Origin: Bryobacteraceae bacterium
Lineage (GTDB): Bacteria; Acidobacteriota; Terriglobia; Bryobacterales; Bryobacteraceae
Reading direction: 5' to 3'
Assembly: GCA_019187195.1 (NCBI GenBank)
Contig: JABAQT010000060.1
Span: 38,830 to 102,829, forward strand
DNA length: 64,000 bases
Below the pieces are notes generated by a model. That model was not told the DNA's origin. It ran no database searches and worked only from the letters and a program-made list of their open reading frames with translations. Below, piece after piece: positions 40,769 through 42,764 of the stretch. Each line of letters starts with the position of its first letter. Positions within the stretch are counted from its first letter, which is position 1. Both the position numbers and the translations under genes were made by a program.

Positions 40769-41908
40769 CTATTCGAATCGGATCGTAATCGTTGCTAACG
40801 TATTTGCCCGCGTCAGCGGTTTGCCGCCGCTCACGTCCTGCAGGAAGAACATCATCCCATCGTTCACCCAGGTCCCGGTCTTTGCCGATCCCCGGGGGCC
40901 CCCCGACGCGAACAGAGCGCCGTCCGGCTTTCCCACCCGAACCTCCACGCTCTCCAGTCCCGGAACATTCCAACTGATGGTGGTCATCCTCGGCGCTCCG
41001 GCCGCAACGGGTATCGGGTTGGGAAACGCCGCGAACGACCGCTCCACCGCCGGACAGGGCGCGTTCAGCCCCGTCAGGCACACGTTCCCGTCAAACACGT
41101 TCGCCCCCTCGGCCGACAGGTTCACAATATCGTAACCCTGAGGCGCCGGAAGACTCACCGACATCTGTACCGCCGGGTTCCCCATCACCACGTTCTTACG
41201 AAACACGTTCTTCTCGGTTCCGGCCTCCAATCTGATTCCATGCGCATTGCCTACAATCGTGTTTTGTTCAACAAGATTCTCCTGTACCGCCGCTGCAATA
41301 AATCCAATTCCAAAATTGTTTCCTGGAGCCACAAAACCATTTCCACTGATCCGGTTCTCACGGAGCCGGTTCCGGCGGCTGCCGCCGTTCACTCATATCC
41401 CTCCGCACGGAAACGTCATGTTCCCGTTGCGAACCGAGACGTTTCCTTCCAACTCGTACTCGGACGCGGCGTTCAGGTAAAACCCCGCAAAGCAGTTGGT
41501 CGACGCCGTAACGCCGGTGATCTTGCCGCCGCTGCTGTTGTTCACCCGGATACCGAAACTGCGCATTTGCCGGATAACTCCTGGTCCTCGGATGACCGCT
41601 CCGTTCTGTCCGTTTACGTCAATCCCGATCTCCGTTCCCACGCCCCCGCCCGAACAGGCGGCCTCCGCATCCGCTTGACCCGTGATGGCATAACCATCAA
41701 GGTCGAGCGTAATATTTGGCGCGCCAACAACGATACAGGGCGCGCTCTCGACCGCGCACGTCACGTCCTCTACCAGGACGCTGTTTTCCTCGATTCTCAA
41801 CGTCGTGTTGATGGTGCCTCCGATCTCCTTGGCCGGGATCGGCTGTGATAACCACGCGAGGCTCACCATGACGCTGCTAAGCCGGAACAGCATTCTATCG
41901 GGTTTCAT
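40769..41908 (-). pseudogene. Secreted parallel beta-helix protein interrupted by an in-frame TGA
   Basis: From ATG 41908 (signal peptide MLFRLSSVMVSLAWLSQPIPA) the frame runs 171 codons to TGA at 41395-41393 and continues in the same frame from GTG 41392 for another 207 codons. The coil pattern continues across the stop: NMTFPCGGI, stop, VNGGSRRNRLRENRISGNG. So this is one gene with a nonsense codon; CGA-to-TGA or TGG-to-TGA is the simplest origin. Reinitiation at the adjoining GTG is possible. It is the third gene of the MerT/HMA operon, overlapping the HMA gene by 14 bp. No good SECIS-like hairpin follows this TGA. Confidence 0.75.
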
Positions 41909-42404
41909 TTCGTTTGCCGCCTTTCTCGGCATTCCTGATCCGTCCAACCTTGCATTCCACGGTTTCTCCGCTCCCCAGAATCAGCCCCTCCACCAGCAGT
42001 TGCGCCCCCGGTTCGATCGTCCCCGCCCCCGCGCCCAGCCGTACGGGAATTCGATTCCTTCCCGCCACCAGCAGCATCTTCCCGTCACCCCCCGTTTCCA
42101 ATCGTCCCCGGGCTTCCATTCGCATGCGCAGAACGTGGACTCCCAGCGGTCTGAGAACTTCCTCGATCTCCTTCGCCGAGAACCGCGCGTCAGGCTTGTA
42201 GTGAAGCGTGATAGTCTCCTTCGCCGAGCTGATGTCCACCTTCCCGATGCCTTCCATTCGCCGGAATCGGACCTCGCTCACCACCGCGCATACGCCGCAT
42301 GAGATGCCGCTCGTCAAAATCTCCACGTTGTCCACCTGCGCGAGTCCGGCAACCTCCACCCCCACAAGCATCGCTGCCGCCATCAATGATTTCGCCATGC
42401 GCAT
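41895..42404 (-). CDS. Secreted heavy-metal-associated (HMA, MerP-like) domain protein
   Basis: 169 residues. A signal peptide (about 1-22) is followed by an HMA ferredoxin-like domain with the metal motif GISCGVCA (C36, C39), then VRFRRMEGIGKVDISSAKET and FSAKEIEEVLRPLGVHVL. A ~75-residue beta-rich C-terminal extension is unusual for MerP-like proteins. It should bind a soft metal in the periplasm and hand it to a membrane partner. It begins 6 bp after the MerT-like gene (ribosome site GAGGAT), the same order as merT-merP. Confidence 0.87.
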   Translation of the reverse strand: MRMAKSLMAAAMLVGVEVAGLAQVDNVEILTSGISCGVCAVVSEVRFRRMEGIGKVDISSAKETITLHYKPDARFSAKEIEEVLRPLGVHVLRMRMEARGRLETGGDGKMLLVAGRNRIPVRLGAGAGTIEPGAQLLVEGLILGSGETVECKVGRIRNAEKGGKRNETR

Positions 42405-42410
42405 ATATCC

Positions 42411-42764
42411 TCACCGGTAACGAAACCAAAGAAAAACCCACGTTGCCGCCACGATTCCATTGACGCCCAGGCTGACCGCGAGCATTGCCCGGATGCTCCG
42501 GGACCGCATCGCGCCGCCCCGGCCGCGCACCAGCCACATCTCATATGCCAGGGCGGCCACGGCCAGACCGAAAAACACCGGCCGCAAACGCTCCAGCCGG
42601 TAGAAACACCCCGCGCCAACCATCGAGAACACGCCAAGTCCTGCCAGGACTTGCGGCAACACTCATCAGCTTGGCGTAAGCAGAGCCGCGAGTATGGACA
42701 CCCCGGCCGCCAGTCTCGGGCCTAAGTGAAAACCGCGCGTCATCACACTTCGCCCATGTTTCAT
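42411..42764 (-). CDS. MerT-like membrane transporter with tandem in-frame TGA (candidate Sec-Sec) replacing Cys-Cys
   Basis: ATG 42764 opens a frame of 117 codons ending at TGA 42413-42411 if two consecutive TGA codons (42668-42663, positions 33-34) are read through. The conceptual sequence is MKHGRSVMTRGFHLGPRL, AAGVSILAALLTPS, U-U, VLPQVLAGLGVFSMVGAG, and onward. Length (MerT is about 116 residues), three membrane helices, LRPVFFGLAVAALAYEMW in helix 2, and the U-U position in helix 1, where MerT has its metal-binding Cys-Cys, all fit a MerT fold. A SECIS-like hairpin follows. It has an AGG ribosome site, a strong promoter, and an HMA partner downstream. Conventional calling would see only 83 codons from GTG 42662. 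The alternative is a pseudogene. Confidence 0.72.
42633..42657 (-). promoter_or_regulatory. Candidate bacterial SECIS hairpin
   Basis: On the minus strand GCC-(GC bulge)-AAGTCCT pairs with AGGACTT-GGC: ten base pairs, a 2-nt bulge, and an apical loop GGC at 42645-42643. The loop begins 17 nt after the second TGA (20 after the first) and its first two bases are G. The accepted bacterial SECIS form is a stem-loop about 16-37 nt downstream of the UGA with a G in the first two loop positions. It lies inside the coding sequence, as bacterial SECIS elements do. Confidence 0.6.

Follow-up and report, generated by a model that had tools for sequence, protein, structure and literature searches.

Bacterial SECIS elements (bSECIS) are a known kind of element, and the published rules describe them by an apical loop of 3-9 nt with a G in the first two positions, an upper stem of 4-16 bp, a UGA-to-loop spacing of 16-37 nt and a minimum free energy of -7.5 kcal/mol or lower (PMC13188914). 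In MerT, Cys24-Cys25 of the first membrane helix takes Hg(II) from periplasmic MerP (PMC5715351). MerT proteins with a single selenocysteine (Sec) have already appeared in reviews (PMC9312934, PMC13188914), and the putative mercuric transport selenoprotein of family PF02411 (ABB16073.1) is listed with a single Sec, which belongs to a C/SxxU motif (PMC13188914). The metal-binding protein NF041115 has two Sec, arranged as UxxU (PMC13188914). We found no record of adjacent Sec in MerT, or of two consecutive UGAs served by a single bacterial SECIS, in the literature searched, which covered few subscription papers.

We analyzed a stretch of 64,000 nt (the window), which carries on its minus strand a MerT-like gene with two adjacent in-frame TGA codons, followed by a hairpin. 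Like the canonical MerT of Tn501/Tn21, the locus has a vicinal pair in helix 1 and a MerT-MerP gene pair; unlike it, the predicted product has Sec-Sec in place of Cys24-Cys25 and no second cytoplasmic Cys pair, and neither merR nor merA was found among the neighboring genes examined. ABB16073.1 and NCBIfam NF045683 (MerT/CopZ fusion-like selenoprotein) share with this putative selenoprotein the membership in the MerT family; however, two adjacent Sec would replace the helix-1 Cys pair here, compared to one Sec in ABB16073.1, and there is no fusion, as opposed to NF045683. Matches to the latter model (MerT_CopZ_Se) were weak (best E 0.004, 3/7 members scanned, short of the cut-off of 375 bits); in a set of 297 genomes from the phylum, this cut-off was never reached, and the NF045683-like genes translated from the phylum keep Cys-Cys. 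NF041115 likewise combines two Sec in one metal-binding protein, in a different family and with the Sec two residues apart.

The MerT-like gene, its partner and their relatives

The features of the locus are as follows.

42411..42743, minus strand: merT-like gene interrupted by two TGA codons in frame (Pfam MerT and NCBIfam MerT models; the same two TGAs in 14 relatives)
42663..42668, minus strand: tandem TGA TGA, probably read as Sec-Sec, where helix 1 of MerT has its vicinal Cys-Cys
42660..42662, minus strand: GTG codon directly 3' of the tandem TGA, identical in 14/14 relatives
42635..42653, minus strand: putative SECIS hairpin of 8 bp (5' arm 42653-42646, loop GGC 42645-42643, 3' arm 42642-42635), from comparative evidence and folding
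42633..42657, minus strand: the hairpin as first drawn, 10 bp with a 2-nt bulge; its three extra lower pairs and the bulge are not conserved
41895..42404, minus strand: partner gene, next in the cassette, for a secreted HMA (MerP-like) protein with an SCGVC metal site (Pfam HMA, E 4e-4, below the curated cut-off)

Between 42764 and the stop codon 42413-42411, the reading frame is interrupted solely by TGA TGA, in the minus-strand context ...CCA AGC TGA TGA GTG TTG CCG CAA GTC CTG GCA GGA CTT GGC...; the gene has 110 codons plus the stop if the ATG at 42743 is the start, although the exact start is uncertain. With TGA written as Cys, the product matched Pfam MerT (PF02411) with an E value of 2e-5 and 24.9 bits, below the curated cut-off of 32.9, and it also matched the NCBIfam MerT models, again with scores below the curated cut-offs. 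For this reason, we infer the transport function, and by its sequence the product is a distant PF02411 relative, hence "MerT-like". The UGA-UGA pair aligns with the Cys-Cys of MerT homologues, a vicinal pair that is essential in MerT. An AlphaFold model of low confidence (pLDDT 60, pTM 0.38), in which several helices are hinted at and the UGA pair coincides with a break, was not used as evidence.

Relatives were sought among close relatives, in the class, in the phylum and in a genome contig collection, yielding 14 distinct sequences, the window included. All 14 carry the tandem TGA and come from Acidobacteriota (Bryobacterales, gp5, Luteitalea and others); they span several families and at least two classes, with identity down to about 48%. 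Every recognisable member of the subfamily has TGA TGA, and none has a single TGA, Cys, Trp or any other codon, whereas more distant MerTs of the same phylum have Cys-Cys at this position. Because independent genomes carry the same two TGAs, a sequencing error or a decaying gene is ruled out. The plasmid and viral collections searched contained no relative. The family is likely to have been missed in annotation, since gene callers split or truncate such genes.

The gene for a MerP-like HMA protein lies downstream of the merT-like gene in 13/14 loci. In four of the loci (L023, L024, L038 and L065), the HMA protein itself has an in-frame TGA replacing the first metal-binding Cys (GITUxxCA), and its gene contains its own 7-bp hairpin, with the loop NUGGA 18 nt past the TGA and stem letters that differ among the four; this is likely a second SECIS. 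Given that no merR or merA was present among the neighboring genes examined, mercury is a presumed substrate, and the metal would be Hg(II) or another soft metal.

Geometry of the hairpin and probable decoding of the two UGAs

The hairpin reads CAAGUCCU-GGC-AGGACUUG (42653-42635, minus strand) and forms eight continuous Watson-Crick pairs, from C42653-G42635 to T42646-A42642. The earlier note had reported these letters correctly downstream of the tandem TGA, and had drawn them as a 10-bp stem with a 2-nt bulge and the loop GGC. Such a structure can indeed be drawn in the window, with GCC 42657-42655 paired to GGC 42635-42633 around a GC bulge and the upper seven pairs the same as in the 8-bp stem; its loop stands, but the lower three pairs are not conserved, the lowest being broken in 11/14 relatives, the next in 3/14 and the third in 1/14. 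We therefore use the 8-bp stem, which is the longest uninterrupted, most economical and best conserved one. Similarly, the distance of 17 nt given in that note holds between the second TGA and the loop, but not between the second TGA and the hairpin, the stem of which begins after 9 nt. The loop lies 20 nt past the first TGA.

All four published bSECIS rules agree with this 8-bp hairpin, as had been claimed for the distance, stem length and loop G of the 10-bp form. The loop has 3 nt (5 if the U-A pair opens) and the stem 8 bp in 14/14 sequences, the loop begins with GG in 14/14, the spacing is in range for both UGAs, and the free energy is about -10.5 kcal/mol in the window and -10.5 to -12.4 kcal/mol in the relatives. 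By these sequence criteria, the merT hairpin is a good member of the class, from the consensus of which (PMC13188914; E. coli fdhF type) it differs in that one hairpin follows two adjacent UGAs. In two of the carrier genomes, FdhA has one in-frame TGA and a hairpin whose loop, GGUCU, starts 18 nt after it; the geometry of the merT hairpin is thus that of a SECIS which these cells also use, although its own loop is GGC with a closing U-A pair. In the genome of the window, no FdhA was found. The SECIS of E. coli fdhF has a bulged U, which is lacking in the merT hairpin.

With a probability of about 0.9, we read the hairpin as a bacterial SECIS that lies within the coding sequence for a MerT-like selenoprotein, serves both UGAs and gives Sec-Sec in the first membrane helix. 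SelB carrying Sec-tRNA(Sec) would bind the apical loop, which starts with GG and caps the 8-bp stem, and would bring selenocysteine to the UGA that occupies the A site of the ribosome, for both codons; the one hairpin could serve them in succession because 20 nt and 17 nt are both within the accepted 16-37 nt. The product would carry two adjacent selenocysteines where MerT of the Cys type has Cys24-Cys25. It is also quite probable, albeit somewhat less so than the SECIS reading as such, that delivery by SelB to two successive A-site codons creates a metal site of two vicinal Sec within a membrane helix of the transporter, which in some lineages is paired with a Sec-using periplasmic carrier. 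The two genes would then make up a cassette for soft-metal transfer, in which Sec would have replaced both Cys of the transporter pair and, in some lineages, one Cys of the carrier as well.

The alternative that retains the most weight, which we still consider improbable, accepts the hairpin as a true SECIS and assumes that Sec is inserted at one UGA alone, while a near-cognate tRNA reads the other or translation mostly terminates there. Under the two-Sec reading, SelB would need to work on two A-site codons in succession, and the 2026 selenoproteome review contains neither adjacent Sec codons or a Sec-Sec pair nor a single hairpin for two adjacent UGAs, which is compatible with the decoding of only one of them. 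Nevertheless, both TGAs are kept in 14/14 sequences without a single replacement by Cys, Trp or another codon, and both are within the known range of spacing. Two UGAs in a row are costly because Sec insertion competes with termination; as both are kept in every member, the family must gain from a Sec-Sec site, and the presumed gain is very tight or fast handling of soft metals. The locus, with one hairpin at 17 and 20 nt from two adjacent UGAs, is a compact natural system for asking whether one SECIS acts on successive codons.

Sec machinery and probable translation across the UGA pair

The host genome encodes SelA (474 bits), SelB (372 bits) and a tRNA-Sec with the UCA anticodon. SelB is present in all 14 genomes checked that carry the UGA-UGA MerT (a count that leaves out the genome of L038), compared to 25/40 for other genomes from the phylum. 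In one carrier genome (G085, the genome of L023), two SelB genes score above the family cut-off.

Even less probable is an explanation in which the first UGA ends the gene and translation restarts at the invariant GTG to make a shorter MerT, so that the hairpin would aid stop-start coupling and not Sec insertion. A GTG codon is able to start translation, and the arrangement TGATGA-GTG is invariant (14/14), which speaks for a restart. Several observations are opposed to it. Upstream of the TGAs, this half of the gene shows selection on the protein in the same frame (pS 0.70, pN 0.18), and its peptide matches the first half of MerT helix 1. The UGAs are exactly on the Cys-Cys position, such that a restarted protein would be devoid of the metal-binding pair, and a stem so near to the start would hinder initiation. 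The presence of SelB in all carrier genomes tested is a further argument against a restart.

Evidence for the hairpin at the RNA level

We compared the hairpin to synonymous-codon resamplings that encode the same peptide. A Watson-Crick hairpin of 8 bp with SECIS spacing and the loop G appeared in 0.04% of the draws, and at exactly this place in 0.02%; when G-U pairs were allowed, 13% of the draws gave a stem of at least 8 pairs, so that the single sequence is suggestive, not conclusive. In the window, 3 of 1,655 TGA triplets on both strands are followed by such a hairpin. Folding of 60 nt that include the UGAs went against the hairpin: another structure was preferred, with a stability no better than that of shuffles (z 0.18). 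The hairpin forms if the fold starts just past the second UGA; in L036, it is predicted to be a minority state in free RNA.

The strong evidence for the hairpin is comparative. The 8-bp stem is paired in 112/112 cells across the 14 relatives, compared to 21-63% for slid controls; the earlier note had named TGA-TGA homologues lacking the pairing as a refutation of the SECIS reading, and there are none among the 14. By contrast, the 8-bp stem is found at this place in 0/39 Cys-Cys MerT homologues (41 listed minus two spurious frames), with 5 bp in one of the 39; the difference is significant (Fisher p 4e-13), with the caveat that this statistic ignores shared ancestry.

The frequency of synonymous change points in the same direction, pS being 0.12 in the six stem-loop codons versus 0.70 upstream of them and 0.66 downstream. 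Of all runs of six codons in the gene, the one that begins exactly at the stem-loop has the lowest pS. Synonymous change is thus strongly suppressed over the hairpin, which is indicative of selection at the RNA level. The hairpin codons GTC, CTG and GGA are identical in 14/14 sequences, whereas codons for Val, Leu and Gly vary freely elsewhere. Covariation, a check suggested in the same note, was found in L047-L049, where the hairpin is CCGGUCCU-GGC-AGGACUGG and the stem is kept through the changes A-U to C-G and A-U to G-U; these are two changed pairs in one clade, perhaps one event each. In L038, the loop is GGU (Ala to Val) and the stem is intact. Because most of the stem never varies and covariation alone is weak, the case rests on the suppression at synonymous sites, on the control with Cys-type genes and on the persistence of the stem. 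As to the description of LPQVLAGLG as conserved MerT residues, it did not hold, since the Pro and the final Gly are all that is shared with Cys-type MerTs in this region; the remaining residues seem to be held by the hairpin.

That the hairpin arose by chance, simply from the need to encode the conserved peptide LPQVLAGLG, is very improbable: the 13% obtained with G-U pairs would be in its favor, but Watson-Crick stems of this length are very rare among the draws, synonymous sites are frozen over the hairpin only, and the stem stays when the peptide changes (VIAPVLAGLG, VLPQVLVGLG).

No Rfam family above threshold matched the hairpin. A search of the relatives with an RNA model gave good scores for merT loci only, and no other gene was seen to share the element; weak matches (E 0.05-0.1), among them one in a frame for an ABC transporter and one in a frame resembling a membrane glycosyltransferase, were unconvincing.

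Two further invariant codons should be noted. The GTG at 42660-42662 is the same in 14/14 sequences despite its position outside the hairpin, which may be a context effect on recoding. A single Cys (42606-42608, minus strand), 19 residues past the UGA pair, is invariant as well (14/14) and may be a third metal ligand.
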